Source: Thelephora terrestris (lineage: Eukaryota; Basidiomycota; Agaricomycetes; Thelephorales; Thelephoraceae). Taken from it: a stretch of 64,000 nt of DNA. This document shows positions 28,024 to 54,408 of this stretch, piece by piece (the stretch's first letter is position 1; each line of letters opens with the position of its first letter). The stretch covers positions 124,001 to 188,000 of the forward strand of contig WIUZ02000009.1 of assembly GCA_015956445.1 (NCBI GenBank), in the 5' to 3' direction. The translations under genes and the position numbers were made by a program. The notes below the pieces were generated by a model. The model saw only the letters and a list, made by a program, of their open reading frames with translations, did not search any database and had not been told where the DNA came from.

Positions 28024-29727
28024 ATGTACTCCCCTATATCCAAGGAGCCCCGCCTGACTGGAGGTCCATTTATACCCCGCCTATGTGCCGTTAAGAGAGG
28101 ACTACAGGACGTTCTTTTAGGGACGAGGTGAGTCGGCCGCATGGGCACAGGGTAAAATCATGTCCGATCCCTAAAATTTGAATCTGCAGCGTTGCGGTTA
28201 CCTTAGACGAGAATGAGGTTGGAGAAATCAACAGATCTCGCGCGTTGTTTGGTGTTCACTGTCGTATTTCAGCTAGTTGCCCTCGACGAAGAGGCCTCGG
28301 AGGTCGTCTTCTTGATCCGAACCATAAGGAACAGACGTGCCCCCATCAACCGTCTCCCTCGCGATGTACTTGCTCTCATCCCGCAGTTCTTTGATGGGCA
28401 AGAGAGAGCGAAAATCGCAATTGTTCTGACCCACGTGTGCCGAGCTTGGAGAGAGGTTTTCATATCGCTTGCCTCGCTTTGGACAGACTTCGACTGTGCG
28501 GACGCCGCGAAAACTCGGTGTTATTTTGACCGCTCGAAGTTGGCCCCCGTCAGCATGCGTCTGAACAGACCAACGGGTTTCTTTCCCAACGATCCATTTC
28601 TAGAGGTTTTCCCCCAACTTATCAGCCGGCTCAAACGTCTGACCGTGAAGACGACGCCGGGTTACCTTCAAGACATTACCCAGCACCTCGTTCACCGGGC
28701 GCCACTTCTCGAGGCCTTGTCGATAAACGCCAGTCATCTTGACACAAGGGCCAGCTCTGCGCTCACGACAGATATCTTTGACGGGGATCTCGCTTCCCTG
28801 CGCGAATTACACCTGTTTTCCGCCACCACCCAGCTATCCTGGAGGAATATGAACAACCTCACGTCGATCTCAATGGTTTATGCGTTGGATCCCGCAGTCT
28901 CCGTCGGTCAGGTCCTCGACTTCCTCGAAAGCGCTCCTCGCCTCCTCACTATCACGCTTCTCTTTTCCGCCTCATTGTCAACGTCGGCTGCTCAAAACGG
29001 ACGACTGGTATCACTCGCACGCCTAACCAGGTTAAGCATCTGCGGGTCGCAAAGACCTTCCATCTTGCTTGACCACCTCATCATCCCTGTCGGTGCGGGA
29101 GTGTTTACAGTTTTGGACTCCCCTGGGCCCAATATCGATGATCACCTTCCCAAGTCTCTCGAGAACCTCAGGAACCTCTCCCATTTCACCAAAATCAGCT
29201 TATTCTATGAATCAGATCCATACACTGAGTGGACATCGATACAATTCACAGGGCCAAACGGAGAAGTCAGAATTACTTCCTCATCCTACACTCCCGACGC
29301 AATGTCTGTGGTACCCCAATCTCTGGCTAGATTTGACACCTCAAAAACCCGGTGTCTGGAGGTCGTTGGCTCCGAATTCACCACGGAGCTTCGTCAGGCA
29401 CTTCTGTCTTTGACAAATCTACGCACCCTTATAATCTCAGAATGCCGCGACATACTCCCCTTCCTTTTTGAAACGGACCCTATGTCTTCGCCAGATACTT
29501 CGATCGTGTGCCCACGATTGAAAGAGCTCACCGTCTCCGTTTACGATGAATGCGATATGGACAGTCTAATAGAAATTGCGGTGGCCAGGGAGTGGGAAGG
29601 AGCACAACTAAATTTTGTTAAGATTTTTAGTTGCGGGGAACCTGTACTGATGGAGAGGGTCGAAGAGCTGCTGGAATACGTCTCACGCGTGGAAATCAAC
29701 ACCAAGGTCGATGAAGAAGAGAATTGA
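28024..29727 (+). CDS. F-box protein with LRR-like body, family I copy 1
   Basis: Three exons: 28024-28127, 28190-28217 and 28273-29727, giving about 529 residues. The F-box is near residues 65-105 (INRLPRDVLALIPQFF, then LTHVCRAWREVFISLASLWT). The rest is the degenerate leucine-rich body common in mushroom F-box proteins. F-box proteins link substrates to Skp1-Cul1 ubiquitin ligases; the substrate here is unknown. The first exons were placed by comparison with the paralogue at 59088-60839, which has the same 104-nt and 28-nt leading exons and the shared motif KEP...LLGTSVA. An internal ATG at 28213 lies across the second donor site and is not the start. Confidence 0.75.
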
Positions 29728-31330: not shown

Positions 31331-31637
31331 ATGGACAGCAGGCAGCGGGTAACCCCAATTTTAACGGCTGCGCATAACCTTACGTCCCCTGGACATGCTC
31401 CCCATTACCGTACAGTAAGACAACATCACTACTGTGTGAAGGATTTGGTATGCACGATACACACGTCAAGACAAAAATCAAGGACGTACTGTTTCACTCC
31501 CCCTGGCTGGAGGTACATATGTAAGAGGTACGTCAGTCACCACGCCAAAGGTAGGGTTCTGGAAGTCTTACGTCTTCCTTCCAGGCAAGCTGTGCCGTTA
31601 ACTTGGTCGGGGTACAAAGGAGTATTAACTCGCACTC

Positions 31638-31790
31638 TTGAGTGAAACTCGGGAAGCCAAGTCGGGATACTCCGGGAATACACGACGCCTTCGAGAGGTC
31701 CGCAGAAATATGGGATATAGTTTCGAACTTCCCTGTGCTCGCTTTCTCAGATCCGGTTGCTCCTCAATCTCAACGACCATAGGCCGCGTT
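31638..31790. repeat. 3' flank shared by kinase-like genes K1 and K2, copy 1
   Basis: Matches 37732-37880 in direct orientation (shared GAGTGAAACT, TCCGGGAATAC, ACGACGCC-type blocks and TATAGTTTCGAA). It lies just beyond the 3' end of K1, as the partner does for K2, so the duplication that made these genes included downstream DNA. Confidence 0.7.
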
Positions 31791-31973: not shown

Positions 31974-34232
31974 TCAAGAAGATAAAACGGTCACCTTGAG
32001 CAAGGCAGGGATGAAGATATCAAGCTGGAATTCTCCGGTTATTCCCAAGTATTTTTTATTTGAGCGTTGGCGGTGTTCTGAGTTCGAAGGGTCATAATCG
32101 ATGGATCCTAGTGTCCCATAAGTGTGCCGAACAAGACCGAAATATCTGTGAACCTGTCCCATTGTGGGTCTATTGTCAGGTTTGACAGACCAACAACGCT
32201 TCATGAGGTCCCACAACCCGTCCGAGACGCGGTTCCTCTCCTCCGGCCCGTCTGGTCGAGGAGGGCACTGCCTCTTGCTGATCCTCGCGTAAATGACGGC
32301 GGCATCGCGAGTGATGTTGGAGAACGGCACATTCTCCGTTATGCATTCAAGTATCAGCATTGCGAACGAGTATGTATCGGATTGCATCGTTGCGGAGAAA
32401 TCGTTGTTTTCGATGAGCTCTGGGGCTGCATACCTAATAACAGCGGCGGATGGCACTGTCATTGTCGCCGTGTTCTCGTTGCGTTCTTCCATGATCGTTG
32501 CGATTCCGAAGTCACAGATCTGTGGTTCACCCTTATCGGTGTATGGTCAACTGCCGTTTTGTGAGTAGGGTGGAGACGGCGACGTGAACTTTACCTCCTG
32601 AGAGACAAGTATATTGTTCTGCGTGCTTTCAGTCAACAGAGACTGAGGAGAAAACGAGATAAGAAACTCACGCATTTGACTGCGTAGGGTGTCAGATGGA
32701 GGGTAATCATCAAGCCGATGTTTGACTTACCGCTACCATGTATGATACCCTTAGAGTGGAGGTAACTCAGCCCAGCCGCGGAACCACGTAACTAAACGAT
32801 GACAAATGAGGCTCGATACCAACTTAATTCGCTATGGAGCCTACGAGAAGAATTTTATCCGATTGAGGTTTATTCTTGACGTAGCTAAGCAGATTTCCAT
32901 TTTCACGCCACGGGAATACCTAAGGGACCCGAATCTACCCCCGTTTGTTTCTCCACCCACGATTGCTCACTCACCATGAAAAGCCGCTGTGCGCTTTCAA
33001 TTGTCCCTATGCAACCATGAAGGTCATCGGGGGAGGAGCTGGGGAAACGAACAAACCATAGAACGGCAGAATGTTTTGATGACGTAGTCCTGCCCAGCCC
33101 GGAAGCGCATTTTCGAGTTTCTAACGAGAGACATGGACAAGAAGCGGGAAGACAGGCCAGAAAGAATCGAACCTTACGCATTTTCTCTGGCGCCTTGGTC
33201 AATCGAAGTACTTTCAAAATTACCTGAAGAGAGCCTTGTCAGCAAGATGGAGGTGATGAGGCCCAAACTCACTTGCTCTCCACCCACTCCTTCGCCACCT
33301 ATTTGTTCCCCGCCGATCCCTTCCCCGCTACCTTTTTTCCATCGCCCTTTCCAAACTGCACAATGCGGCCCCCCGGAGAAGGGCATGTCCCCTTCTTTCG
33401 TGACTTCTCCGTCCAGTTGCTTGAGAGAGGGCGGTGGGTTTGCTTCAGCCGATTGACTCTCTAGTGGTTCGGGTTCTGCGGTTTGACGTGGCAGCGGTTC
33501 GTGGTTCTAAACCCGGCCGTCCAGCGTCATCATCCACATCATTAATAGACGCAATGAAGGTACCTACCCCATGGTTTCCAGAAGAGGTGGGGGTGGGCTG
33601 GACAACTGGACACTGGGAAATCTATGGGTGACACCACAATTGGAATGAGTTTGGACGGATGCTGTTAGAGGGAACCTTTACAGAGTATGTTATAGACTCG
33701 AACTTGTTAACGAACTCTGTGACACCCGCCTCGATATCCTTTACTTTCACTGGCAAACCTCTCAGTTACGGAGAAGGCCGAGACAATTCGGACTTACTCA
33801 AGCTCTTTGGATAATTATATCTCGACCAGATTGCCAGCTGTTTCTCAACTTCGGCTAGCTCGCTGTCAGTCCAGACGGTCCGTCAGCAGAGGATAGATCG
33901 AAGGGGGACAACCGACAGGCCTTTGGAGATCGTTATAGTTGTATTGTTGCAAAATGAGGGAGCCATCGCTGAGACGATTAATAAGTCTTGTACATAGACC
34001 CACAAGCTCCGAAGTTTCTTTCTGCTGGGGGGACGTGGACCGCATGATCAGCATCTAGAGGGTGGGTGAAAGGGATAGAATGACCTTGGCGACGGATATT
34101 TTCCCACAATGTTTGGTGATCAGTTCCAAGGGCTGCTTGACTAGAAGGATGCGACATCTCAAAAGTTTCACGCTACTTGAAATAATGTAACTCACGCAGA
34201 CTTGCACTCGTCTCCCCTGCTCCTGAGCTCAT
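31974..34232 (-). CDS. kinase-like protein K1 with N-terminal helical domain; predicted pseudokinase
   Basis: Multi-exon gene starting at the ATG at 34232 (MSSGAGETSAS). The N-terminal exons are helical: LKQPLELITKHCGKISVAK, KETSELVGLCTRLINRLSDG, SELAEVEKQLAIWSRYNY and VKDIEAGVTEFVNKFESITY. This pattern resembles the MLKL/Cbl-type helical bundle. The kinase part follows: glycine-rich GGPHCAVWKG, the lysine in VILKVLR, LRHQNILPFYG, LRGSAAGLSYLHSKGIIHGS, a micro-exon giving VKC, NNILVSQE, CDFGIA, YAAPEL and a C-lobe ending DLMKRCW. The catalytic Asp of HRD/HGD is Ser, so phosphotransfer is doubtful. All exons I placed splice in phase, so the gene looks maintained. Paralogues: K2 and K3. Confidence 0.7.
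32672..32679 (-). other. 8-nt micro-exon in the catalytic loop of K1
   Basis: TCAAATGC flanked by an AG acceptor (CTACGCAG) and a GTGAG donor. It completes the codon begun in the previous exon and gives Val-Lys-Cys, producing HGSVKCNNILVSQE. The same exon is present in K2 and K3. Confidence 0.65.
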
Positions 34233-34311
34233 GGTGGGCGATATCAGCGATTGATCTCGATCGAAGCCAAATCGGACGTGATGATTGCACGGGCCGAAAG
34301 CGGGCCTTCAT

Positions 34312-34728
34312 TTACAGCTGGTTGCGTTTCGATAGGCCTATTCCTACAAAATTAGGCCCCGCTTTTTTGTTCACGTTTTGATGGTATTGGAGCTCGGCAT
34401 CCTTGCATGACGCAGATGCGGGGGGTAGACGCGCGATGCCGGACCAATCACACGATGCTGGTTTAGGCCTTACATCATCACTCGCTCCCGTTTTCGTACC
34501 CGTCCCAGGAAAATTCCAGTACTTGCCTGGCATTAATCACTAGCTGCTGACCACCCCAACTACCAAAAACAGAGCGAAAGAGATGAATTTATGACCCGCT
34601 GCAGACCGATGTGAAAACCGGCAGGTGCCATGATGCCGGAGTGCCGGCCCCAATACCATCAAAACGTGAACAAAAAAGCGGGGCCTAATTCTGTAGGAAT
34701 AGGCCTATCGAAACGCAACCAGCTGTAA
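34312..34728. mobile_element. MITE-like inverted-repeat element
   Basis: Terminal inverted repeats of 79 bases, 34312-34390 and 34650-34728, with about one mismatch, starting TTACAGCTGGTTGCG and ending CGCAACCAGCTGTAA. The roughly 260-base interior has no open frame. The size, the long near-perfect termini and the absence of coding sequence fit a non-autonomous DNA transposon. I see no clear target-site duplication, so the superfamily is open. It sits just upstream of K1. Confidence 0.75.
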
Positions 34729-35592
34729 TGACGGCTTTACCAATACCCGCAGCTCGTGCATCACCTCAGTCGTTTTTCTCCCTTACAGAATCCTTCTCTG
34801 TGTACTTCTTAAAATCTCTGCGGGGTTCGATGAAATGGGATTCACCGCCTACGCAATCGGGATCCAGAATAGACCACAGAACTCCGGCCCCACGTACCTT
34901 ACCCGTATAGTATATCCACTCGACAGCGTGGAAACCTCTGAGCGACGGGCTTTGGAGGCACGAGGATAATCGCGTACGATCATAACTGGGTGGACGGCGG
35001 CCACGATTCACCCTAAGTTCTTCAACAGACAACTTCCAAATCTGCTGCCGCCGCTTTCCACCCTTACGCTGGAAACTCCAGTAAGCAGGAACAGTGGGTT
35101 CCCCTCGCGGTCTAAATCATATTGATAGCGGTGTGGTATCGTCGTATCGAATTGGTGTGCCCCCCGGAATAGTTACGGTCTCGTAACGCGGAGGAAACAC
35201 GATAACGATGATGCGGACAACCTAGGTGCGTTCTCAGTTTCGCTACGAGAAGTTTATTCCTCACCATATGAAATATTCAGACGACGTAACATTTTCCTGT
35301 CGGTCTGACGACGCTCTGGTGGTACGCTGCACACGAGAAGGGGAGGAAGAAGATATAACTCGAAACCACAGGGACGAAACCAAGCACGTCAACGGTCATT
35401 CATTCGTTCATCGTTGTATGTATACCAAACACACATAATTTCATCTACTCGGTTAAGAATACAACAAGAAAAGGATCGCAAGGAGGCCGAAAACAAGGGA
35501 ATCATCAAAGCAGACCTACAGGACGACACTGGAGTAAACAAACATCGTGAGGTACGCGAGGAATACCCATAGAGGAATCTCGAAAAAGGTCA
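34729..35592. other. no gene recognised
   Basis: About 860 bases to the right of the MITE-like element with only short frames and no domain, RNA or repeat that I can identify. Confidence 0.4.
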
Positions 35593-36625
35593 TCAACGGT
35601 TTGTTTTCGTCGGCATCATGAGGAGTCCCGTGTGCGACGGTATGCCCTTGTACCCGATCTGAGCATGGTCAGCGGTCATTTTATGAACGTTCGGCAAAAA
35701 ATACATAGGATGCATACAACTTACCCCTAGGTGGTGCATCAAAACGTTGAGCGTTCCGAGGTGGTCGTCGTCGGGAGCCGGAGACAGGCCCAACGACTTT
35801 GCCAAAATCGACACGGAGTTTTCGTCTGCGTTGATGAGTTGACCGAATGTGATAAGCTCGACCCCCTCCGGAAGACTTCCAATCCATGCGACGGGCTCAT
35901 TTGGGTATTGAATACGCAACAGTGAATTTTGCAACCGGGCGTGACTACGGCGCAGGGCGGAGTCAGGGAGTACCACCAAACCAGGTGCTCGGTCGCACTC
36001 ACGATACCTTGGAAGCTTCCTCCAGCTTCCCCGTGTTGACTTCGTTATCCTTGAGGTATTTGATGTAGCGCTCCAGCTGTTTTTTTACCTGCGCACACAC
36101 AAGTTACTTGGGTGACGGAGGCCCCGAGGAAACAGTAAGTTCACTCACCTCCGCTCTAACCCTATCCTGAAGTTTTTGTTCGACGTACTTTCGGACTACC
36201 CCCTCCAATGCATCGCGGTTTTTAGTCCAGAAGCCGGCCTTGAGTTCGGCGATCTGCTCTCGCAGAGGGTCAAAGGCGGTTTTCAGTCCTTCTTTGTGGA
36301 CCTTTGCGCGGGCCCCCAGCTCCTTCACCTACGGATGATCAAGCGTGGTCAGAGACACGGTGAGGAGGGAGGTGAGGTAACGCACGGCCTCGCTTCCCCG
36401 TTGAAGAGGGATCGTATAAGAAACTGAGGTTATTTGCTCTCCGATGAGAGCAAACAGTCTAGAGGCAACCGCGGACATATCCCGCAGTCCCTCCAGATGA
36501 TCTCTGAGCTCTAGGGTGGTCATCGGGTTTACTTTCCCCTGAACCGCTTTCCCGTTCTTGTTTGAGGAGTTTTTCGCGTCGGCGTTCGCGTTCGGGGGTT
36601 GCCTGGGATTATCGGGGCGGAACAT
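35593..36625 (-). pseudogene. helical mushroom protein of unknown function, frameshifted
   Basis: Starts at the ATG at 36625 (MFRPDNPRQPPNANAD). Recognisable segments are TTLELRDHLEGLRDMSAVAS, a long helix (VHKEGLKTAFDPLREQIAEL and VVRKYVEQKLQDRVRAEV), KKQLERYIKYLKDNEVNTGK, SATEHLVWWYSLTPP and EGVELITFGQLINADENSVS. Introns near 36130-36190 and 36329-36424 explain two breaks. The junction before SATEHLVWWY is displaced by five bases, and the frame changes again just after LTPP; neither fits an intron. I infer a decayed copy of a mushroom-specific helical protein family. No enzymatic motif is seen. Confidence 0.5.
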
Positions 36626-37731
36626 CGTGCAAGGGGAAGGGCGAGGGTAGTGGGAAATGCTGGGGAATGCTGTCCTTAGATATACTTCCCCAAAATATAT
36701 AGTCAACCTACGGGTGGCGTCGGGTATTTGATATTCCACCCGGAACTCGCCCTCGTTGCACACAGTCGCTGCGAATTGAAGCCAGGTAATAGGTGGCTTT
36801 ATCTCCGGCGTGACCGAGGGGTGCCCTTCATCTCCATTCAAGGATCCAAAAACTGCAGTCAAGAAAACGATGGGATAGACAATATCATGGGTCTTGTGCA
36901 ACCACGATGCAGCGATCAAGCGCCGACTCGTGCGGAGAACCGTGGCTGGATGAGAAGACAGCAGGCCAGTATCGGGAATAAGACCTACGCAGTAGTAGGC
37001 CTTATTTGCGTTGTAACCAAGGGACGTCACCTGTTTGGGAATCCAGAACACGCTCCGAGGAGATGATAGCGCGACGATCGCATCGTGGGCGACCACGATG
37101 CGACCTTCGAGCGCTGGCTCAGTCAAGGACTGTGGCTGGGTGAGAAAACAACTGGATGTATGGCAAACTAGCATCAAAATAGGTCGAGAGCGTACCTCGT
37201 TGCAAAGTCCGGCATGGCAACAAACGTTCGGACTTTGGGTTTCGCCCTTGCGAAGGGGCTCATCAGAGGGCTTACCCGCTGCCCTAACCCGTCCTCGAGA
37301 TCTTTATGTACTACCCATTTTTGGATGTATCCTAGTGGATTCCACGCAGCGCCTATCTGTCAGCGCGTTGATGCGTTTGACCACAGGAGATGGGTGCAGT
37401 GTGGGGGGTCAGACTCAATCAGGTGGGGCGCTCCCTGCCTCGGCACCTTCTTGACATTGGACCATGTAGGCGTAGCTGACAGTGACGCAACCTACACAGC
37501 CGACTGAATGCCTGCCATAGACAGGACTTTTCATACAAAGATCTGTCGATCCAATCTACCCCACACTTCATTCAGTCGGCCTTCTCCGAAGATAAGGTCG
37601 AAAAACAACAAAGTGCTGTGTCTTGGGTGAGATTGGAACCGAAGACATCGAGTTTGCACCAATACTAGCCGAGGATTCATGTGTTTGGGCGTGGCTCGCC
37701 GGTCAATGCGGCAAAAAAGACAGAGTATCCT
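36626..37731. other. no gene recognised
   Basis: About 1.1 kb. A minus-strand frame reads through 36329-37177 from upstream of the helical pseudogene, but its part above 36625 shows no known domain and is probably upstream sequence. Nothing else supportable. Confidence 0.4.
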
Positions 37732-37880
37732 CGAGTGAAACTTGGGAAGCCTAGGCGGGATAATTACTCCGGGAATACATGACGCCTCCGAGGGGTTCGC
37801 AGTAAACAGTAGATTATAGTTTCGAAATTCCCCGCTGATGCTCCTCGAATGCGATCGATCTCAACGACGATCAGCCGGAA
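37732..37880. repeat. 3' flank shared by kinase-like genes K1 and K2, copy 2
   Basis: Partner of 31638-31790, located about 250 bases beyond the 3' end of K2. The spacing from stop codon to repeat is similar in both copies. Confidence 0.7.
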
Positions 37881-38134
37881 CCCGTTCAGTGACCTGAGCT
37901 AGGCTCGACGCAAGCCCGGATCGGCCGCAGGCCGAAGCTCGCCGAGGGAAGTGGGTTTGGTACGAACCTATGACCTGAGCCAATGAGCCGATGCCATTCC
38001 CAGTAATCTTCCAACGCGGTACAGCTACAGCATATTTATATAGGCAAGACTTCGTTTGGGCTTTAATACGCCCGCGAAAGCTCGTAAAGCTAAACTAAAT
38101 ACCTGCCAATTAAAACGAGAGGTACATCGTTGCG

Positions 38135-40274
38135 TCAAGCCAGGTCCAAGAAAAAACGGTGCACCTCGTCCATCGAAGGCCTCAGTTCAGGCTCAGCGTC
38201 CCAACAACGGTTCATAAGGCCCCACACATCGTCCGGGATACCATCTGGTCGATTTGGGGATTGTTTCTTGCCGATCCTCGAGTGAATGACCGTGGCATCA
38301 CGAGGGATGTCGGAGAAGGGATGAACTTCCGTGATGCATTCGAGTATCAGTAGTGCGAATGAATATGTGTCGGAATATGTCGTTATGTGGGAACCATTGC
38401 GTTCGATGAGCTCAGGGGCCGCATGCCTAATGACAAGTGGCGGCCTATCTAAGGCTAGGTTCTCCAAGTAGTCGTCTCCACAGGCGATCTTTTCCAGTCC
38501 GAAATCACAGATCTGTGGTTCACCCTTGACATTGTACCGTCAACTGTCGTTCTGTGAGCAGAGGCTAGGCATTTACCTCTTGAGAGATGAGGACGTTGTT
38601 CTGTGGGACTTCAGTAAATAGCGGGCCCAGAAGATGCCGTCAAAAACTTACGCATCTGACTGTGTGAGGTGTCAATCAAGCGTGATCGTCAAGTTTCTGC
38701 CAAACTTACCACTCCCGTGTACTAAACCCCTCAAGTGGAGGTGGTTTAACCCAGCTGCAGAACCACGTAACTGAACCGTGTCGAATGAGGCCCAAGTTCC
38801 TCCCGACTCGCTGTAATGCTTACCAGGTGGTGTTTATCTTCTGGGGAGCGTCCCTTGGCGTAGACAAGTAGATTTCCACGGAAACACCTAAGGAAGTTGA
38901 ACCTACCCATGTTTTCTCGCGTAAGATGTTGACCTACCATGTAGAGGCGGTTCCCGATATTCCTCACCGTCCCTACACAACCATAGGAACCTTCGGAGCA
39001 ACAGTATGGGAGAAATACATACCGTAGAATGGCAGGATATTCGGATGACGTAACTCTGCCCAGCTCTCGAGTTCGCTCTCGAGTCTCTGATGAACGAAAG
39101 CGCGTGGGTCAGGAGCGTAGAGAGAGACAGTAAAAATCGAACCTTACGCGCCCTCTCTGCCCTCTCTGCCCTCTCTACTTTCTCTGCCTTATCCCCCCTT
39201 CCTGGCGGCTTGAGTGTCCGAAGTGCTTTCAAGGCCACCTACAGAGAGCCGCATCAGCGGGATAGAAACAGTGAGATTCATACTCACCTTCTTCGTGTCC
39301 TCCTTGCCAATTCCCTCTCCACAGGCCTTCTCCCATACCCCCATCCAAACTTCGCAGTACCTCCCCTCGGCAAATGGAATATCCCCTTGTCTCGTAACTT
39401 CCCCATCCAAACGCTTGACGGGGGGTGGTTGATTGCCTTCGACTGAGCGGCTCTCTGGTGAGCCGTGTTCCGAGGTTTGACGCGGCAGTGGTTCGTAATT
39501 CTGATCGTTGAGCATCATCCCGCATCATCATCCGCGTTGCTGGTGAACACGATGAAGTACGTACACTGCGACTGGGCATGATCAGAGGACTAGCGCCGTT
39601 TACTCCCCCGGGGAAAGCATGCTTCTATTAGCCCTACCGTTGGGCTTGTTCGATACGAGGTTGGTCGAGGTGACCGGGCTCGCGGAGGTCTGCGAAGGCC
39701 ACGAGTACATAACAGGTACTTCCAGCAGGGTCCAGACGAGACTCACAATGGAATTGATATTTCCGATGAACGCTCCGATTCCCGTCTTGATAGTTCCTCC
39801 TTTTACTTGCAGACAAATCAGTTATGGAGAGCAGCATAATCACTCGGACTTACTCCATCTTTTGAACAAACCGTAAGTTGACCACAGTGCCAACTGTCCC
39901 TCGACTTCGATGAGCTTTCTATAAGTTCACGACATCAGCAAAGGATGAGTTGGGAGGGATGCCAGACAGGCCTCTTGAGTTCGTCAAAGTTTGACTGTTC
40001 CAGAGTGAGGGAACGATCGCCGAGGGGCCCTTTCAGAGTTGTGCACAGTCCCTGAAGGTCCAGTGCCTCCTTCTGTATGGAGGACATGAGCCGCACGTCA
40101 GTATCGATGGGACCGCTAGTAAAACAGGTTGACCTTGGCGGTAGATAGTTGGGAGCATTTTGTGATGATCTGGTCCAGGAGTTGTTGAACTGGGAGGATG
40201 GTATATCTTAGGAAGTAACGTTACATGAAACCATGCAACTCACCCGACCGATCTCCTCTTCTTAGTAATTTCAT
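38135..40274 (-). CDS. kinase-like protein K2 with N-terminal helical domain; predicted pseudokinase
   Basis: Starts at the ATG at 40274 (MKLLRRGDRS). The N-terminal helical exons read VQQLLDQIITKCSQLSTAK, EALDLQGLCTTLKGPLGDRS, RKLIEVEGQLALWSTYGLFK and KTGIGAFIGNINSIVSL. The kinase part has a weakened glycine loop (EGRYCEVWMG), the lysine in VALKALR, LRHPNILPFYG, an HGS catalytic loop continued by the micro-exon as VRC, NNVLISQE, CDFG, HAAPEL and HRFFLDLA before TGA at 38135-38137. The catalytic Asp is Ser and the glycine loop lacks its second Gly, so activity is unlikely. The exon after VALK contains a 9-nt tandem repeat. K2 duplicates K1 including its 3' flank. Confidence 0.7.
38652..38659 (-). 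other. 8-nt micro-exon in the catalytic loop of K2
   Basis: TCAGATGC between a CACACAG acceptor and a GTAAG donor, giving Val-Arg-Cys in HGSVRCNNVLISQE. Same position, size and phase as in K1 and K3, with one base changed. Confidence 0.6.
39150..39176. repeat. three tandem GCCCTCTCT units in K2 coding sequence
   Basis: Three exact 9-base units followed by a diverged fourth. On the coding strand they encode Glu-Arg-Ala repeats after the VALK lysine. K1 and K3 lack this expansion. Confidence 0.7.
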
Positions 40275-40414
40275 GTTTGGGTGGTAGACTGGTAATAAAT
40301 CCTTCGACACAGGATCACGCCGTTGGTCTGAGGTGACTATAGTTGATAGTCGGAAACCACGCGGTCGGTGTGAGGCAACTGGCCGCTAGCTCGTTTTCCC
40401 GGAGTCGAACAAAG

Positions 40415-40505
40415 CTTACGCATTGAGGGGTTAAATCATGCGTGATTGTCAAGCCTATGTCAGACTCACCGTTCATATGTACAACACCCTTCGGCGCGGG
40501 AGGCC
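40415..40505 (-). pseudogene. fragment of a fourth kinase-like gene
   Basis: On the minus strand this reads a GTTGTACATATGAACG exon end, a GTGAGT donor and intron text like that of the K-gene intron before the micro-exon. The equivalent motif would be GVVHMN in place of HGN. No other kinase exons surround it, so it is a relic of another tandem copy between K2 and K3. Confidence 0.5.
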
Positions 40506-40753
40506 CAGGTTCCCGAGTCCTGGTTTGCTAGCACGAACTTCAAGCCGAGAGTGTTCTTTCAATATTTATCAAAGTGTCTGCGCGCCGCGATTGCAGCCGT
40601 CATTGGAGACATGCCTCCAAGCCTTTAGTAATCTTCTAATGTAGCGCATCTACTTCATACAGGTAAGGCTCCCATTGAGCTTGACGCAGAGGCGAAGCCC
40701 GAAAAAGCTTGTAATGAACCTTTGCTAATGTAAACCGTAGGTATGCCACCGCG

Positions 40754-42154
40754 TCAAGTCTGCTCCAAGAAAAACCGGTGGATTTCTTCCATCGTGGGCC
40801 TCTGTCCAGGGCTGTAAGACCAACAACGCTCCATGAGGTTCCATAAACCGTCCGAGACCCATTCCCCCCCCTCCAACTCATTCGGCCGAGAGGGAAGCAG
40901 CGGGCCATTGGTGATTCTCGCGTGGACAACCGCAGCGTCGTGGGTGATGTTGAGGAACGGCACTTCTTCCGTGACGCATACGAGTATCAACATCGCGAAT
41001 GAGTATGTGTCGGAAGACACCGTTCGGGTGGAGCAGTTGTCCCTGATGAGCTCCGGGGCCGCATACCGAATCATCTCACCGGACGACGTATTCCTGCTCC
41101 CGTTGGCGTCTTCCACGAGCGCTGCTATTCCAAAGTCACAGAGCTGCGGTTCACCCTTGTCGCTGCGTGGTCAACTCCAGTTCCGCAGGAGAAGGATATC
41201 TGATTTACCTCCTGAGTGATAAGTACATTGCTCTGTGCCCCTGGTCAATAAATGTCAAGCGAATGCCGCCAGAAACTCACGCATTTGACTGCATAGTAAG
41301 ATGTCAAGTCGTGCGGTAACCGTAAAAAGTATGTCAAACTTACCGTTCCCGTGTACATAACCCATCGAGTGGAGGTAACTTAGCCCAGCCGCGGACCCAC
41401 GTAACTGATTCGCGACAAGTGAGACTCGATTCCCCAAGTCACCATGGAGCGTACCAGATGGTGTTTGTCCGGGTGAGGATACTTCTTGACGTATGCGAGT
41501 AGATTTCCTTTTTCACGCCAAGGTGATACCTAAGGGACTCGAATCTACCCCGCGTTTTTCCACCCGCGATTGCCCACTCACCGTGTAAAAGCTTTTACCT
41601 ATATCCGTGACTATTCCTATGCGATCATGAGGATCTTTTGGAGTACAGTTCGGGGAACGAACACACCATAGAACGGCAGGAGGTTTTCGTGATGTAGTTT
41701 TGCCCAGTGGGGAAGAAGCTTATCTTCGAGTCCCTGACAGGATATAAACAAGGACCACAGAGACAACAAGCGGGAATCGAACCTGACGCATCCTCTTTGA
41801 CCGCTTGTTTTCCCAGGGCTTATAGTCTTTCAATGCTACCTGACAAGGGGGGTATATCAGCGGGATAGAAGTGGTGAGATCCAGCCTCACTATTTCGACG
41901 CCTGCTATCTCCCCTACCTCGCCAACTCCATCTGCGCTATCTTTCTCCCCGCCTCCTTTTCCCTGTCGACCTTTCCAGACTGCACCGTGCGGCCCCCCAG
42001 CAAAGGCTATATGTCCATCTCTCGTAACTTCTCCGTTCAAACTTCTGACAGGGGGTTGTTGGTTCCTTTCGACCAAATGGCCGCCTAGCGTCTTGACTTC
42101 CTCGGTTTGACGCGGCGACTGTCCCTGATCCTCGATATCGTCACTCGGGATCAT
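40754..42154 (-). CDS. kinase-like protein K3; predicted pseudokinase without the helical N-terminus
   Basis: Exons run from the ATG at 42154 (MIPSDDIEDQGQSPRQ) through 41890-42154, 41783-41839, 41667-41733, 41582-41616, 41455-41529, 41344-41404, the micro-exon 41281-41288, 41209-41232 and 40754-41155, all in phase. Motifs: glycine loop AGGPHGAVWKG, lysine in VALKDYK, LHHENLLPFYG, LRGSAAGLSYLHSMGYVHGN, VKC, SNVLITQE, CDFGIAAL, YAAPEL and GLWNLMERCW. The catalytic Asp is Asn; the Lys two residues on and the metal-binding Asn are kept. Upstream DNA shows no helical exons like those of K1 and K2, so this copy either lost them or never duplicated them. Confidence 0.75.
41281..41288 (-). other. 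8-nt micro-exon in the catalytic loop of K3
   Basis: TCAAATGC, identical to the K1 micro-exon, between a TATGCAG acceptor and a GTGAG donor. It gives HGNVKCSNVLITQE. The flanking introns are 41289-41343 and 41233-41280. Confidence 0.7.
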
Positions 42155-42650: not shown

Positions 42651-42654
42651 ACTG

Positions 42655-42840
42655 AGAACCTAACCGATTCTTCGATGTGGCCCTCTAGGACGCTGAGGAA
42701 GGGACGGAAGTCCAGTCCCATATCGCAGTGGTAGGTGGTAAACATGATCATGCAGGGGGCCGAAAGGCTTGATTGGCAGTCTCCCGGCTTTGCTCACGAT
42801 ATGCGTAGTGGTGGAGACAAGTCAATCATAGTTATGACAT
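42655..42840 (-). pseudogene. F-box family II 3' fragment with following poly-C tract
   Basis: Aligns with the interior of F-box II-1 (about 43415-43600), sharing GTGGCCCTCTAG, GCTGAGGAAG, CAGTCTCCCGGCT and AATTATGACATAT-type blocks, but without an intact frame. A run of 19 C follows at 42883-42901. An equivalent fragment with a G-rich tract lies in the opposite orientation at 63550-63740, beyond F-box II-3. Confidence 0.7.
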
Positions 42841-43174
42841 ATACAGATGATTTCGCAGCCCATCAAAAATGTGGAAGCGCAACCCCCCCCCCCCCCCCCC
42901 CAGAAACCAGCCTCCTCAAGCAGACCCCGGAGCAGAGCTAAAGATGGAGCAAATCAGCAGTCAGCGTCTTGGCGTGTTGACCTGCAGGGTCACCCTGTAA
43001 AATAGACCGTCGAGGACTAGATTCTCCCCTCTTATTTCCTCTCGCACTGTCTCCAAACAGCTGCTCGGAAAGATGGTATTCCAGTAGCAAAGCACGTATA
43101 TCTATAAATACGCTCAGAAGTGAAATCCGAGAACTATTCACATAGGGGCTTACAGGGATTCAATAGCTGAGACT

Positions 43175-44910
43175 CTAGTATTCATCATCGAGCTCCTCAT
43201 CGAGTTCCTCATAGCAATACTCCACATTGCCGACCCACGGCCTCAGCTCCGCTTCAAACTCTGCAGGCAATCCCCCCGCGCGGACCAGTAGAGATTCGAA
43301 AGGCACTCCAAGCGCGTTCCGTGACCGTGCAAGCCCCAAGACCGTTGCCGTAAACGCTTCATCGGATTCGCACACTGGGTGTAAGATTGTCAGTTTCTTG
43401 ATTGGTGGGAACACAGCCGGTTCTTCAGGGTGGCCCTCTAGAGTGCTGAGGAAGAAATGGGAGTATGGTTGTACATCGCAGCGACAGATGGTCAACTCGT
43501 CCAAGGGGCCAAGAGACTTGAACAGTCTCCCGGCTCCATTCGAAATATGTGTGGTAGGGGTGGTGTCAAGAGAGTCGTAATTATGACATATGGAGACGCG
43601 CTTGATGTTGGCCAATTGGGGGTAATCCAGGATAGTGTTGATGGCCTCGGCGAAGACTTCACGGCGCGCCCGGTTAGTGTCTACGCCCCAAGTTTTGACT
43701 ACGAGACACAATTCGATGACGGTCGCATCAGAAGTCCGAAGGGTTAGCGTGCATGTGACGATGTTGATAGAAAGTGTGAGTTCCTCGACCGGACTTCTTG
43801 TATATTGACGGATGATCGCGTTCCACAAATCAGGAGTGGGGAATATTCCCTCCCAAATCATGGTGTCGATGTTTTCATCAATCTTGAGCGCCATAGACGC
43901 GACGGAAGGGCAGGATAAGTGAGTCGCGATCTCGTAACCGGGGTGGATATAAGTCAAGGTTATGTCGATGTCTTTGACGTTGGGGAGGACGACGACCCTT
44001 TCCTGAGGGATACCATCGAGCGATGTACGTTCCATGACGTTTATCTTCAGCCTTTGAAGCATCGGTGAGGTTTCCAGGAAGTCCAGCAGTTGCAAAGCGC
44101 AGAACGGCTCCCATGGCCGCACTTTATAATCAAACACGACGAGGTTTGGAAAGACAAAATGGCTCAAGGGTGGTGTCCAGGCCGACGTTGTATAGAAGCG
44201 GAAATTCTTCAGATTGACAGCGGTGCTGAAGAGGCGTGTAGATGGGGGGACCATCACTTCGAGATCACTGGGGTGAAGGCCGTGAGGAGCCAGATTGAAC
44301 GTGAGGGTGTCCAGGAGCGGGAAAGGTCCAGGATTGTTATCTATAAATCTTTGGATATCTGCCCACCCATGGTTTGCAAATCCGATATCCCTGATTTGAT
44401 TGGTATGGGGAGAAAGTAGGCTCATGGTGCTGGTGGGAACCTCCCGGTAACCGCTCCGCCCAACGTTCACGACCAACTGGGACCCCTTTGCGCGTCCAAG
44501 AAGAGTTTTCACATAGTCCTCACCCTTGGATAGGACCAGCTCGGACCATAACTCAGCGCGTTGGAGGAAGGTCCTGCGCCAATGGCGACATACAAAACTG
44601 GCACGAAGACGGTCCTTTTGGGAAACGAGATGGGTGGGGATGAGGGAAAGGATGTCGAACGGAAGGCGGTTGATGTGGCTAAACGTGTTCCTCCATTCGC
44701 GAATAGTTGCCAATGTGGCTGAAATGTCGTTTTCGAGCTGAGAGACTTGTTCCAGGGTGATGCTACAAGGGAAGTTAGTGTGTTTGTCGGAGACACCCAG
44801 GACACCAAGACATACAATGGAGAAGATGCTGTATGCTTTAGCTCCTCGTTCAGAGCAAAAGCGAGTTGTAAAATGGACAGGCCCCTTCCGGGATAGGTTC
44901 GTGCGTCCAT
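43175..44910 (-). CDS. F-box protein, family II copy 1
   Basis: Two exons: 44816-44910 (95 nt, MDARTYPGRGLSILQLAFAL...) and 43175-44762, separated by a 53-nt intron, giving about 560 residues. The F-box is INRLPFDILSLIPTHL followed by RASFVCRHWRRTFLQRAELW. The C-terminal body has weak leucine-rich repeats and ends in an acidic EELDEELDDEY tail. It is presumably a substrate adaptor for an SCF ubiquitin ligase; the target is unknown. Copies II-2 (45601-47342), II-3 (61548-63295) and II-4 (63790 onward) share the 95-nt first exon. The long second exon has its own ATG at 44713, but the conserved first exon argues for the upstream start. Confidence 0.8.
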
Positions 44911-45600
44911 TGAGATGAATGGCGTTGGAGAGAGAACGTGCGGTTATTGCACTTGATGACTAAGCGATTGAACGCCGCTTATAGGAGGGGTCGGAAGACC
45001 TGTCGGTCGCAGCATTTCAAGATGCAGTTGCACTACTCAGTGGGACAAGAGGCATCTTGAGGTTCGTCCAATAGACGGGGTGCATATGGGAACGGTGAGT
45101 CTGACATATGTATGAGACTAAGTACACAGCACTATCATTGACAGGAGGGGTTTCAATCGCTTCCAGAAGATCGCCTTTGACCCGTGCGAGCTCAACATCA
45201 GCTTCCCCCAACAAGTTGGCCACCTCTTTGACGAATGACTCCAATGAGCCCACTGGGTCATCAACTTCTGCTTTCCCTGAAACATGTCCTTCTCGAACTG
45301 GCTCAAATTCGAGCCCTCAAGACAACACCTCGGTCTCCTCCTTGGACTCCTTCCGAGACATATGGAAGTGGCTCCAGCATCGACGATGTAACGGTCATAA
45401 AGGGCAAAAACGGGGGCGTGCTTCTTTCCATAATCCAAGTCAGACTATTCTCCCCTCTGATTTCCTCTCGCACTGTCTCCAAACAGCTGCTCGGAAAGAT
45501 GGTAATCCAGTCGCAAAGCACGTATATCTATAAATACGCTCAGAATTGAACTCCGAGAACCATTCACATAGGGGCTTACAGGGATTCAATAGCTGAGACT
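44911..45600. other. spacer between F-box II-1 and II-2, partly duplicated
   Basis: The left roughly 150 bases (up to about 45070) match the upstream flank of II-2 (47380-47500). The right roughly 150 bases (45440-45600) match the downstream flank of II-1 (43020-43174) nearly base for base. The middle has a minus-strand frame (45017-45253, MGSLESFVKEVANLLGEADV...) that is helical but not recognised. Confidence 0.5.
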
Positions 45601-47342
45601 CTAGGATTCATCATAGAGGCCCTCATAGCAATACTCCACATTGCCGACCCACGGCCTCAGCTCCTCTTCAAACTCTCCAGGCAACCTCTCCGCGCGGACC
45701 ATTAGACATTCGAAAGGCACTCCAAGCGCATTCCGTGACCTTGCAAGCCCCAAGACCGTTGCCGTAAACGCTTCATTGGATTGGAACGTCGGGTGTAAGA
45801 TTGTCAGTTTCTTGATTGGAGGGAACACAGTCGGTTCTTCAGGGTGGTCCTCTAGAGTGCTGAGGAAGAAACGGGAGTATGGTTGTACATCGCAGCGATA
45901 GATGGTCAACTCGTCCAAGGGGCCAAGAGACTTGAACAGTCTCCCGGCTTCGTTAGAGATATGTGTGGTGGGGGTGGTGTCAAGACAGTCGTAATTATGA
46001 CATATGGAGACGCGCTTAACGTTGGCCAATTGGGGGTGATCCAGGATAGTGTTAGTGACCTCGGTGAAGACTTCACGGTGCGCCTCGTTACTGTCTGTGC
46101 CGTGAGTTCTGACTACGAGACACAATTCGATGACGGTCGCATCAGAAGTCCGGAGGGTTAGTGTGCATGTGATGATGCCGATAGTGTTTAGTGAGAGCGT
46201 GAGTTCCTCGACCGGACTTCTTGTATATTGACGAATGATCGCATTCCACAAATCAGGAGTGGGGAATATTCCCTCTGAAATCATGGTGTCGATGCCTTCA
46301 TTAATCGTAAGCACCATAGACGCGACGGAAGGGCAAGATATGTAAGTTGCGATCTCGTAACCGGGGTCGATATAAGTCACGGTTACGTCGATGTCTTTGA
46401 CGTTGGGGAGGACAACGACCCTTTCCTGAGGGATACCATGGAGCGATGTACTTTCCATGACGTTTATCTTCAGCCTTTGAAGCATTGGTGAGGTTTCCAG
46501 GAAGTCCAGCAGTTGCAGAGCGCAGAACGGCCCCCATGGCCGGACTGTGAAATCAAATACGACGAGGTTTGGAAAGACAAAATGGCTCAAGGGTGGTGTC
46601 CAGGCCGACGTTGTATAGAAGCGGAAATTCTTCAGATTGACGGCGGTGCTAAAGAGGCGTGTAGAAGGGGGGACCATCACTTCGGAAATACCGAGGTGGC
46701 CTTGAGTAGCCAGATCGAACGTGAGGGTGTCCAGAAGTGGGAAAGGTCCAGGGTTGTTATCTATGAATCTTTGGATGTCTGCCCACCCATGGTATGCAAA
46801 TCCAAATCCGAGATCCCTGATTTGATTGGTATGGGGAGAAAGTAGGCTCATGGTGCTGGTGGGAACCTCCTGGTGACCGCTCCATCCAACGTTCACGACC
46901 AACTGGGACCCCTTGGCGCGTTCGAGAAGAGTTTTCACATAGTCCTCACCCTTGGAGAGGTCCAGCTCGGACCATGACTCGGCGCGTTGAAGGAAGGTCC
47001 TGCGCCAATGGCGGCATACAAAGCTAGCACGAAACCGGTCCTTTTGGGAAGGGAGATGGATGGGGATAAGGGAAAGGATGTCGAACGGAAGGCGGTTGAT
47101 GTGGCTAAACGTGTTCCTCCATTCGCGAATAGTTGTCAATGCGGCCGAAATGTCGTTATCGAGCTGGGAGATTTGATCCAGGGTGATGCTGCAAAGGAAG
47201 TCAGTGTGTAGATAATTCTCGGAGACACCAAAGACACCAAGACATACAATGGAGAAGATGCTGTACGCTTTAGCTCCTCGTTCAGAGCAAAAGCGAGCTG
47301 TAAAATGGACAGGCCCTTTCCGGGATAGGTTCGTGCGTCCAT
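45601..47342 (-). CDS. F-box protein, family II copy 2
   Basis: Exon 1 is 47248-47342 (95 nt) and exon 2 is 45601-47188, with a 59-nt intron. It is close to II-1 throughout but carries its own markers: VTVTYIDPGYEIATYISC, LSLNTIGIITCTLTL and the tail VEYCYEGLYDES, which lacks the double EELD acidic motif. The F-box is INRLPFDILSLIPIHLPSQK followed by ASFVCRHWRRTFLQ. SCF adaptor role inferred from the F-box. Its upstream flank runs into the 3' region of the sesquiterpene synthase relic. Confidence 0.8.
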
Positions 47343-47699
47343 GGAGATGAACGGAGAGAAAATGTGAGGTTATTGCAGCTGCTGACTAAGCGATTGAACG
47401 CCGCTCGGGAGGGGTCGGAAGACCTGTCGGTCGCAGCATTTCAAGGTGCAGTTGCACTATTCAGTGGGAGAAGAGGCGTCTTGAGGTCCGTCCAATAGAC
47501 AAGAGACGTGTCAGCTACACCGGTTCTGTTGTAACAGCAATCCCCTACAGGAAGCGTCTCGGCGTCCTTGGCAAGTCCTCGCGTTTGCAACCAATAAGTT
47601 GTGGTTATGAATTTCACCTCTACAGTCAAGTCGAACAGAACACACAGACAGTACGTCGCCGAAGAAAACAAAGTCGTCACCCTCCACCCTACAGATCTG

Positions 47700-50479: not shown

Positions 50480-50773
50480 CGGCATCGTTTCATTCACCCC
50501 ATGGACCAATTACCGTGCACGACAGTTTTCCCGGACGCAGGTGCCTCTAGTTATCACTGTGTGTTTTAACGGAAGCACTTGGACACGATGTGCGAATATA
50601 CGCTGTTTACGGGTTAAACTTGGGACCGATGGGCGCTCTCAATCTTTATTTCCACCCTTAAATTCAAGAGACCTCTGGGCTCCGATGTACTCATCCTTCT
50701 CCCTTCAGTTCACTTTCCAGGTTCCTTTGACTAAACTCTCACCAAGAAGACTCCACTTAGAAAACACGAGACG

Positions 50774-51536
50774 ATGCCTCTTCCCGCCCACCTCACTCGC
50801 CCGATCGAAGTGCTGATGATCGATAACTTTGACTCGTTTACCTGGAACCTCTACCAGTCGCTGCGCCTGCTTGACGCTGACGTCGTCGTCATCCGAAACG
50901 ATGCCATCTCCCCCGAGGATTTTCCCGACTTGCGCATCAGGTCGTTGGTGATATCCCCAGGACCGGGACACCCGCAGACGGACGCGGGTATCTCTCAGGC
51001 CGCGATAACGTACTTCGCGGGGAAGCTCCCAATTTTAGGCGTTTGCATGGGTCTTGAGTGTATTGTTGACGCTTTTGGCGGAGAAATCGCGTACGTGGAT
51101 TGTTTTATACCCCTCTGGGCTTGGCGGGCGCAATCCTGACGGGAGCTCTGATTACAGATACGCCGGAGAGATCATCCACGGAAAGTCCTCCCGGGTGCGG
51201 CACGACAACCGGGGATGCTTCAAGGATATCCCTCAGGGAATTCAATCGATTCGTTACCACTCCCTTAGCGCGCAGCCCGACAAGTTCCCCAAGGACTTTG
51301 TTGTCACCTCCGCTACGGAGGGGAGCGACGTCATCATGGGCGTTCGTCACCGCAAGTACACGCTTGAAGCCGTTCAGTATCATCCTGAGAGCGTGCTGTC
51401 GGAGTGTGGTGATGAGCTGTTCGCTAACTTTTTGAAGTTGAGGGGTGGAACTTGGGAGGAGAACCCGGAGTGCAGCGCTGCCGATACGACGCTGCCGCCT
51501 TTTGAGCTCCATCCGGACGTTACTGTAAAGGCGTGA
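50774..51536 (+). CDS. stand-alone glutamine amidotransferase, paralogue of the TRP1 N-terminal domain
   Basis: Two exons, 50774-51090 and 51158-51536, giving 231 residues. It is a class I glutamine amidotransferase of the anthranilate synthase component II type: [24 protein letters not shown], the nucleophile Cys91 in GVCMGLE and the His-Glu pair in QYHPES. It closely resembles the first domain of the neighbouring TRP1, including the intron position after GGEIA, so it is a tandem partial duplication. The gene ends soon after the domain and has no indole-glycerol-phosphate synthase or isomerase part. The catalytic residues are kept, so it may supply ammonia to anthranilate synthase or another partner. 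Which partner is unknown. Confidence 0.8.
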
Positions 51537-51808: not shown

Positions 51809-51871
51809 GCACGCATCGGTCACCTTCCGCTTCCATCTCTATCCGCGCCTCAGGGTTCTCTTGCTTGAGTT

Positions 51872-54408
51872 ATGTCTGAACCTACCCCCGAGAAACCTTT
51901 GCCTACACCCACAACCGCTACCGAACAAGATGGAGAGGCTCAAAAACCGTTCCCGGCCGAGCTGACGGTCCCGGTCGAAGTGCTGATGATCGACAACTTC
52001 GATTCGTTCACATACAACCTCTATCAGTACATATCTCTCCTCGGTGTCTCTGTTACGGTCGTGCGCAACGATGCGATTCGCCCTGAAGACTTTCAGAAGC
52101 TCGATATCAAGTATCTGATCATCTCCCCCGGGCCTGGACATCCTTTGACGGATGGGGGGATCTCGCAAGACGCTGTCAAGTATTTCATGGGTCGAGTTCC
52201 TGTGCTTGGCGTTTGTATGGGTCTGGAATGTATGGTCGACGTATTCGGCGGGGAGATCGCGTGAGTGGAATTCGATGACCATACTTCGAGGGGCAGGGCG
52301 CTCACCCCCCAGCGTCCGTTAGCTTCGCAGGAGAGATCATGCACGGAAAAGTCAGCCGTGTGCGGCACGACGGAAGGGGGTGTTTCAAGGATATCCCTCA
52401 AGGCATAAAATCCATCCGATACCATTCGCTCAGCGCGAACGTCGACACTTTCCCCCGCGATCTCGCCATCACCGCGACGACCGAAGAAAGCGGCGTTATC
52501 ATGGGAGTTCGACACAGGAAATATACCCTCGAGGCGGTTCAGTATCACCCGGAATCCATCTTATCGGAGTTCGGAGAAAAGCTGCTCGCCAACTTCCTGG
52601 CGTTACGAAGCGGTACTTGGGACGAGAACCCATCCTTCAGAGTTCAAGACCCGAATCTCCCCCCTTTCGAGGTCGAGATCATAAAAGGTGTCGCCCCCAC
52701 GAAGGAACAGCAGAAGAAAGTTCCCTCCATTCTCGACAAGATCTACACTCAGCGACTCAAAGACGTCGACGTGGCTAAAAGTAGTCCTGGAACTTCCCCT
52801 GGCGACCTCTCTACCTCACTCGAGTTGAACCTGGCCCCTCCCCAGATCGACTTCGTCAAGAGGATGAAAGTTCGCTCTCCAGCTTTGATGGCCGAGATCA
52901 AACGCGCCTCTCCATCGAAGGGACCGATATCCATGTCCACGAACGCCGCACAGCAAGCGCTGAACTACGCGCTTTCGGGAGCCTCTGTCATATCGGTGCT
53001 GACGGAACCTAGTTGGTTCAAAGGATCGTTGTTAGACATGCGTTTGGCTCGCCAGGCGGTTGACTCGCTCACGGATCGGCCTGCGATCCTTCGCAAGGAC
53101 TTCATCTTGGACGAGTACCAGATCTCCGAGGCGAGGTTACACGGAGCGGATACCGTCCTCCTCATCGTTGCTATGCTTCCCCTCAGCCGTCTGCAAGCCC
53201 TTTACGCGTTTTCCCTCTCTCTCGGTATGGAGCCCCTCGTAGAGGTGAATAACGCGAAGGAGATGGAGGTTGCTTTGGGCATCGGAGCCAAGGTCATTGG
53301 GGTCAACAACCGGAACCTTCACTCGTTCGACGTTGATATGGGAACGACGAGCAGGTTGGTGGACATGGTTCGAGAGAGGGACATCATATTGTGCGCGCTT
53401 AGTGGGATCACGGGCCCCGAGGACGTGAGGAAGTATACTGCGCAAGGCGTTCAAGGGATCCTCGTGGGTGAAGCACTCATGCGAGCGGGGAACACGCGCG
53501 AATTTATCCGGGAGCTGCTTGATATACCCGAGACACCATCATCCTCTTCGGCCGCAGCAGATCATCAACCGAACCCACTTGTGAAGGTGTGCGGGATAAG
53601 GACTGAGGAGGAAGCTGTGGGTGCGAGGGATGCTGGAGTAGATTTGTTGGGGCTGATGTTCGTGCCGACGAGTCGCAGGAAGGTGGCGTACGAGGAGGCA
53701 AAGAGGATTTCCTCGAGAATTCGACTGGAACGTTCGTCGCACCCCGACAAGTCCTCGTTGTCACCTGCAACAACCAGTCCCGCAACGAACAATGAGCCTT
53801 GGTTCACCACGCAATCACGGCGCCTTTCGGGCGCCATATCCGCATCTGGCGGAGGACCTTTGTTGGTTGGGGTGTTCCAGGACCAGCCGCTAGAGTTTAT
53901 TCTTCAGGCTGTGGCCGAGGTGCAGCTAGATGTGGTCCAGCTGCATGGGAATGAACCGGTCGAATGGAGCAAGCATATCCCGGTGCCCGTTATCAAGGTT
54001 TTCCACGTCAAAGCAGCAACCTCCACCTCCACCGGCGCGGTCGGGGTAGACCCAGTACTACTGCGGGGGCTGAGACGACCAGGTTTGAACGAGTTCGTGT
54101 TGTTAGACTCGGTACGCGACGGGCCTGGGTCCGATGGGCTCTCGGGAGGCAGCGGCAAGGTTGTTGATCTGGATCTCGCGAAGGCGGTCGTCGAGCTAGG
54201 GGAAATTGATGGCGCTTCCGCTGGGGTGTTCGGGTGGAGAATGCCGATTGTCTTGGCAGGCGGGCTGACACCAGACAACGTGGCGGAAGCGGTTGCTCGG
54301 GTCAGGCCGTGGGCTGTAGACGTGAGCGGGGGGGTCGAAAACGCGGACGGGAGTGGAAAAGATTTAGAAAAGGTCAAGGCGTTCGTGCAAGCTGCTCGTT
54401 TTACTTGA
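51872..54408 (+). CDS. TRP1: trifunctional anthranilate synthase GATase / IGPS / PRAI
   Basis: Two exons, 51872-52260 and 52323-54408, giving 824 residues. The amidotransferase domain is near residues 35-230, with Cys115 in GVCMGLE and QYHPES. Indole-3-glycerol-phosphate synthase follows near 290-550 (LMAEIKRASPSKGPI, LRKDFILDEYQI, GVNNRNLHSFDVD, LVGEALMR). Phosphoribosylanthranilate isomerase ends the protein (VKVCGIRTEEEA, DLLGLMFVP, VQLHGNEPVEW, IVLAGGLTPDNV, WAVDVSGGVE). This domain order is the basidiomycete and euascomycete TRP1 arrangement, covering three tryptophan-synthesis activities in one cytosolic protein. It is usual in length and all hallmark residues are visible. Its first domain is duplicated as a separate gene just upstream. 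Confidence 0.95.

Follow-up and report, generated by a model that had tools for sequence, protein, structure and literature searches.

The pseudokinase of MLKL has kept the VAIK lysine and lost the catalytic aspartate, and it follows a helix-rich N-terminus (human chains 6d74, 2msv and 6lk5; mouse-type chain 4btf). N-terminal helical domains of the HeLo/HELL and BaMLKL types occur in fungi and are also named together with a kinase or pseudokinase in passages of two papers (PMC9815663; PMC12881547). The layout of a helical domain plus a (pseudo)kinase is already in print for fungi, in a figure legend of the second paper (PMC12881547), and a passage of the first describes basidiomycete MLKL-like domains as abundant, both within NLRs and standing alone (PMC9815663). 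TKL kinases are exceptionally numerous in Laccaria according to part of one report (PMC2838846), and part of another describes the expansion of FslK kinases in Agaricomycetes through lineage-specific duplication (PMC3937382). Here we describe three paralogous kinase-fold genes, K1, K2 and K3, on the minus strand between positions 31974 and 42154 of a 64,000-nucleotide (nt) stretch of the Thelephora terrestris genome (contig WIUZ02000009.1, positions 124,001 to 188,000), referred to below as the window. The region looks like a birth-and-death cluster of TKL-type pseudokinases with one plausible working gene, K1 (Table 1). No paper on a basidiomycete array of helical-bundle pseudokinases was found among the titles listed by searches of open-licence PMC text.

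K1 resembles each of the described systems in part. Like MLKL, it has a helix-rich N-terminus and then a pseudokinase with the VAIK lysine and without the catalytic aspartate; unlike MLKL, it has an intact DFG motif, a captured C-terminal tail, an N-terminus with no detectable sequence relation to that of MLKL and no evident brace, and its best-listed relatives in the PDB are RAF kinases. The N-terminal helical domain is also a point of likeness to the HeLo/HELL and BaMLKL proteins, but neither K1 nor K2 has a Pfam match to HeLo, HELL, SesA or Goodbye. With the FslK kinases and the further TKL kinases that have expanded in Agaricomycetes, K1, K2 and K3 have in common the PK_Tyr_Ser-Thr fold, the CW(X)6RP motif and lineage-specific duplication, as far as these are set out in passages of the two reports (PMC3937382, PMC2838846); the FslK kinases are described there as predicted to be active (PMC3937382), whereas the catalytic aspartate is absent from K1, K2 and K3.

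The best Pfam family for all three proteins was PK_Tyr_Ser-Thr (PF07714), with E-values of 2.8e-38 for K1, 3e-31 for K3 and, from a reading with one intron kept, 3.7e-34 for K2. The CW(X)6RP motif of subdomain X was present in each, and by fold and motif the three are of the TKL type. A sequence-only reading of this DNA had proposed three minus-strand kinase genes here with the catalytic aspartate changed to serine in K1 and K2 and to asparagine in K3, and all of this was recovered: the HxD motif reads HGS in K1 and K2 and HGN in K3, and what is left of a fourth copy has HMN there. The VAIK lysine (VILK in K1, VALK in K2, VALK in K3), the lysine or arginine and the asparagine of the catalytic loop, DFG and APE were retained in all three, as that reading had held for the VAIK lysine, DFG and APE. 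The position of the alpha-C glutamate is occupied by alanine in K1 when aligned with B-Raf and, in the alignment of the paralogues, by glutamate in K2 and by lysine or leucine, depending on gap placement, in K3; both K1 and K3 have a proline in the stretch that corresponds to alpha-C. The best 60 of the 2288 PDB matches of K1 were B-Raf or C-Raf chains and fusions, and no MLKL chain was among these 60.

Exons were placed by comparison between the copies and their phases were checked by script. The K1 frame stays open, without a stop, across 15 phase-matched exons separated by GT-AG introns of 48-63 nt. Some donors depart from the usual form, namely GTCATT/GTCAAC and GTCGGT/GTCTGG among the N-terminal exons and GTTCGA among the kinase exons, and their positions match between the copies compared. 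Part of the catalytic loop comes from an 8-nt microexon, TCAAATGC or TCAGATGC, flanked by AG and GT in all three copies; together with one carried base it supplies the Val-Lys-Cys of K1 and K3, with a counterpart in K2, and automatic gene finders may overlook it. The several N-terminal exons that had been proposed for K1 and K2 proved to be five in each, with matching phases, and the encoded proteins are 44% identical there. The companion claim, that all exons are in phase and the genes maintained, held for the 15 exons of K1 and for the nine of K3, which lacks the front part, but failed or became doubtful for K2, with its 11-nt deletion and the problem of its linker exon. The K1 ATG is preceded, at a distance of 80 bp, by an element of about 417 bp overall that resembles a miniature inverted-repeat transposable element, with 82-nt inverted repeats (34312-34393 and 34647-34728) that are 98% complementary and ends, CAGCTGG, that adjoin TA; its 22-nt terminus had no other occurrence in the window at up to 3 mismatches.

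Selective constraint on the kinase part was estimated as omega, the ratio of nonsynonymous (dN) to synonymous (dS) divergence, from a codon alignment that includes the kept intron of K2 and has K2 out of register around VALK. By the NG86 method dN/dS was 0.342/1.121 for K1-K2 (omega 0.30, bootstrap 0.20-0.45), 0.299/0.752 for K1-K3 (omega 0.40, 0.27-0.55) and 0.414/1.114 for K2-K3 (omega 0.37, 0.25-0.52), each pairwise value being an average over time that includes any period before decay rather than a measure of present function. Omega was at least 1 in none of the 300 bootstrap replicates for any of the three pairs. The C-lobe exon alone gave 0.49, 0.35 and 0.48 for K1-K2, K1-K3 and K2-K3, respectively. 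For the N-terminal part of K1 and K2 the NG86 values were 0.470/0.886 (omega 0.53, 0.27-0.94), and third codon positions varied most in all four comparisons. Because omega is 0.30-0.40, the pseudokinase was under constraint for much of its history, after the loss of the aspartate, and the helical part evolves faster than the kinase fold. Since the aspartate is absent from three genes and a remnant and omega is well under 1, the pseudokinase lineage would be older than the duplications; most simply, the aspartate was lost before them.

Turnover of the copies is well supported. K3, which would encode the pseudokinase only, is a 5'-truncated copy: its ATG sits in sequence that aligns, in K1 and K2, with the end of an intron, no helical, bundle-like sequence upstream of it was among the tblastn matches listed, and the DNA upstream, at 42653-43100, matches F-box gene regions by blastn. 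The remnant of a fourth copy, which the sequence-only reading had taken as a sign of turnover, could be located: by blastn it matches K2 at E = 6e-7 and in parts also K3 (8e-5) and K1 (6e-4), and by eye it reads CAT ATG AAC, or His-Met-Asn. When K1, K2 and K3 and the N-termini were compared by tblastn with the rest of the window, the matches listed included one to the K1 tail (E = 0.011) and a low-complexity one to the K2 linker (E = 0.016), the others being at chance level.

K2 is damaged and appears to be decaying. Its exon 38887-38824 has 64 nt where K1 and K3 have 75, and normal splicing of this exon leads to an early stop. When no more than two introns, each of 40-260 nt, are allowed, 41 splice paths run through the kinase exon region in phase and free of stops, 15 of them with consensus-like donors; only one of these 15 keeps the conserved GNLL, and it retains the 50-nt intron 38937-38888, which adds a net 13 residues to the GNLL stretch relative to K1. 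The helical exons can be joined to the kinase exons by 74 in-phase paths, of which five have consensus-like donors, and none of the five uses the counterpart of the K1 linker exon. To join the candidate bundle of K2, splicing can skip 246 nt or use sites at 39603 or 39564.

K1 has gained a tail, which, like the residue at the alpha-C position, had not been mentioned in the sequence-only reading. K2 and K3 stop four residues past HRFF, and their similarity to each other runs through the stop codon and past it (repeat families D7 and D18). From its fourth residue on, the K1 tail shows collinearity to the C-terminal part of open reading frames (ORFs) at 14786-15220 and 18779-19234, which belong to a family on the same strand as K1. 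Similarity to the first of these extends beyond the K1 stop to about 31795; the tail plus 3' flank gave a local score of 125 against it, reached by none of 2000 shuffles. The tail against the second scored 52, reached by 1 of 2000 shuffles, and the flank had no match to that ORF in the frame as written out (score 20, reached by 1848 of 2000). In tblastx, 31842-31795 matched 14851-14804 at E = 0.003 and 18863-18816 at E = 0.023, the latter being a 16-residue match in another frame. An intron could lie at 31994-31960, a phase-neutral stretch of 35 nt that falls below the length of the other introns; if it were spliced out, the frame would run on for 70 residues, replacing the last 6. Further downstream the flanks of K1 and K2 match again (74.5% over 157 alignment columns, blastn E = 1e-20), and because of this the tail fragment would have lain downstream before K1 and K2 split. 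It thus probably predates that split and was probably fused to K1 by a deletion. The source family of the tail consists of two groups of similar ORFs on the minus strand, at 14786-16655 and 18779-20881, which look like fungal proteins of the Hsp70/HSP12A type; this label found no support in Pfam (E up to 10) or in the PDB, searched with one ORF.

The sequence-only reading had compared the whole arrangement with MLKL, and the layout stood: in K1 helix-rich exons are followed, in phase, by a pseudokinase. Four putative helices of about 18-22 residues were picked by eye in each N-terminus, and three of the four in K1 exceeded shuffled sequences in helical hydrophobic moment (p = 0.007, 0.034 and 0.028), which fits a candidate four-helix bundle in K1. 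The identification with MLKL gained no statistical support. At E up to 10, the profile search that had been proposed for the MLKL N-terminal family matched Pfam MLKL_N to neither K1 nor K2, while the same library detected human MLKL at 4.1e-50. In hhalign, a K1+K2 profile was aligned to human MLKL with P = 0.051, pairing K1 19-81 with MLKL 13-83 in the expected order. The only Pfam match of the K2 N-terminus was the coiled-coil family CC149 at 0.16, a chance-level value; an NCBIfam search gave none, and a PDB sequence search with the K1 N-terminus gave one chance-level match (1ygm, E = 0.79). Nor was the MLKL-type brace recovered: the linker is rich in proline (10 of 49 residues in K1, 6 of 31 in K2), its helical moment was not above that of shuffles (p = 0.81 and 0.096), so that no brace is evident at the sequence level, and the segments quoted in the sequence-only reading fall on putative helix 4 in K1 and on helix 3 in K2. 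The link of the N-terminus to MLKL is therefore weak.

Tentatively, we favor a reading that we consider a real possibility short of probable: a birth-and-death cluster of TKL pseudokinases in which the helical domain of K1 is under the control of a pseudokinase switch and is most likely put to an MLKL/HeLo-like use. The catalytic aspartate would have disappeared ahead of the divergence of the copies, with the fold retained as a nucleotide- or partner-binding switch. In K1, if the proteins are made as we suppose, the switch would be tethered through a flexible proline-rich linker to a helix-rich domain of roughly 105 residues, probably a bundle; once the switch is flipped, the helical domain would act, being released towards a membrane or towards a partner as part of a response to stress or to non-self. 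K3 could serve only as a decoy or scaffold, K1 would have extended into the tail of a neighboring gene and K2 would be on its way out. MLKL-like action of the cluster is possible on this reading, and a role in cell death or incompatibility is a reasonable idea at the level of a guess. Several results weigh against it. Amphipathicity was not above that of shuffles for putative helix 1 of K1 (p = 0.22) or for any of the four putative helices of K2 (p = 0.13, 0.62, 0.12 and 0.53). Pfam gave no family for the K1 N-terminus, and no match of either N-terminus to HeLo, Helo_like_N, HELL, SesA, Goodbye or MLKL, at E up to 10, with HMMER filters discarding most matches above about 0.1. Shuffled MLKL outscored the real hhalign match in at least 10 of 300 cases, three of five rotated versions of MLKL equaled its score of 15.7, and a PDB search with the K1+K2 N-terminal profile gave none. 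For the N-terminal part of K1-K2, omega rose to about 0.77 by LWL85 and about 1.06 by YN00, and the averaging inherent in the pairwise values bears on the kinase part as well. Because DFG is intact, K1, K2 and K3 may bind nucleotide or have weak activity. No NLR family (NACHT, NB-ARC) was met in the 20 distinct ORFs that were Pfam-scanned of the 173 in the window, and a scan for relatives outside the window, covering viral contigs only, gave 98 and 2 pattern matches, none of them confirmed.

The lack of an MLKL signature would also be expected if the pseudokinases steer active TKL/FslK kinases as allosteric partners or decoy substrates, with the helices serving to dimerize or dock and with no membrane or death role, and we regard this as quite possible, if less so than the switch. 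It agrees with the tighter constraint on the kinase part (omega 0.30-0.40) than on the helical part (0.53-1.06 by method), with the retention of K3 without a helical part at omega 0.40 with K1, and with an MLKL similarity that lies within the shuffle range and no evident brace. However, no such partner is known, and the layout of helices plus pseudokinase is that of MLKL, a like layout being named for fungal HELL domains in a passage of a review (PMC12881547). The helical domain could also be a killer domain of its own kind, not descended from the MLKL/HeLo bundle, and the locus an independent basidiomycete analogue of MLKL in which TKL pseudokinases form a fast-turnover array of executioners and decoys; this we consider decidedly unlikely.

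The frame damage of K2, the truncation of K3, the remnant, the foreign tail on K1 and the inverted-repeat element upstream of it are what would be left if the cluster were debris of an expanded TKL family, with the loss of the aspartate a part of the decay and no functional copy. This is unlikely, as the frames of K1 and K3 are clean over 15 and 9 exons, omega between the two is 0.40 at a dS of 0.75, and only the aspartate (plus the alpha-C glutamate in two copies) has been lost from otherwise intact kinase motifs. The same intact motifs, namely the VAIK lysine, the lysine or arginine and the asparagine of the catalytic loop, DFG and APE in all three, would permit HGN or HGS proteins that still phosphorylate weakly, and some receptors with HRN are reported to retain phosphorylation. 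The aspartate is missing from three genes and the remnant, however, the alpha-C glutamate is replaced in K1 and K3 and a proline lies in the alpha-C stretch, and weakly active kinases seem very improbable here.

Table 1. Features of the pseudokinase cluster (positions in the window).
Feature	Position	Strand	Description
K1	31974-34232	minus	15 exons, 495 residues; helix-rich N-terminus, Pro-rich linker, pseudokinase, captured tail
K1 N-terminal exons 1-5	33682-34232	minus	34232-34196, 34140-34085, 34021-33917, 33858-33798, 33749-33682; 109 residues, candidate four-helix bundle
K1 linker exon	33568-33621	minus	start of Pro-rich linker
K1 remaining linker and pseudokinase exons	32139-33506	minus	Gly loop, VILK, HGSVKCNN, DFG, APE, CW(X)6RP
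Catalytic-loop microexon	K1 32672-32679; K2 38652-38659; K3 41281-41288	minus	8 nt
K1 C-terminal tail	31974-32138	minus	54 residues, originating in a different gene family that has several copies in the window
3' flank of K1	31637-31786	minus	common to K2 3' flank (37730-37877); marks K1-K2 duplication unit
K2 N-terminal exons 1-5	39747-40274	minus	104 residues; joins kinase part in phase only without the linker exon or with a replacement
K2 kinase part	38135-39500	minus	HGSVRCNN; exon 38887-38824 shifted in frame unless intron 38937-38888 is retained
K3	40754-42154	minus	pseudokinase only, 9 in-phase exons, 330 residues, HGNVKCSN
Remnant of fourth copy	40411-40492	minus	end of catalytic-loop exon, intron, microexon region

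The Pfam scans around the cluster identified F-box, HAM1, TRP1 domains, PB1 and phosducin, together with weak matches below the cut-offs. The gene between K1 and K2 (35593-36620, minus strand) encodes a helix-rich protein (MFRPDNPRQ...) whose Pfam matches were weak and below the cut-offs. F-box genes were found at 43175-44959, 45601-47385, 61499-63295, 59088-60635 and 28207-29727; by eye, three of these are close copies spread over both strands and the other two are of another type, with the copy at 28207 falling below the Pfam cut-off, and pieces of F-box genes extend up to K3. A TRP1-type GATase-IGPS-PRAI gene is located at 51869-54408 (fused ORF 52279-54408), with a partial, GATase-like second copy (by eye) just upstream at 50735-51536. 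The fused ORF and the short GT-AG introns are what a fungus would be expected to have, and the F-box genes would agree with an Agaricomycete. On the plus strand, two long ORFs at 4951-8505 resemble by eye a reverse transcriptase/RNase H and a tyrosine recombinase and may be DIRS-like, without Pfam support.

If the N-terminus of K1 is a membrane-acting bundle, this locus would provide a concrete gene of basidiomycete type for asking whether a pseudokinase executes necroptosis-like death in fungi, a direction called for in section 18 of a 2025 review (PMC12881547). If it is not, the cluster would still give a clear example of a family of kinases whose catalytic aspartate disappeared before the gene was duplicated and which was constrained thereafter.

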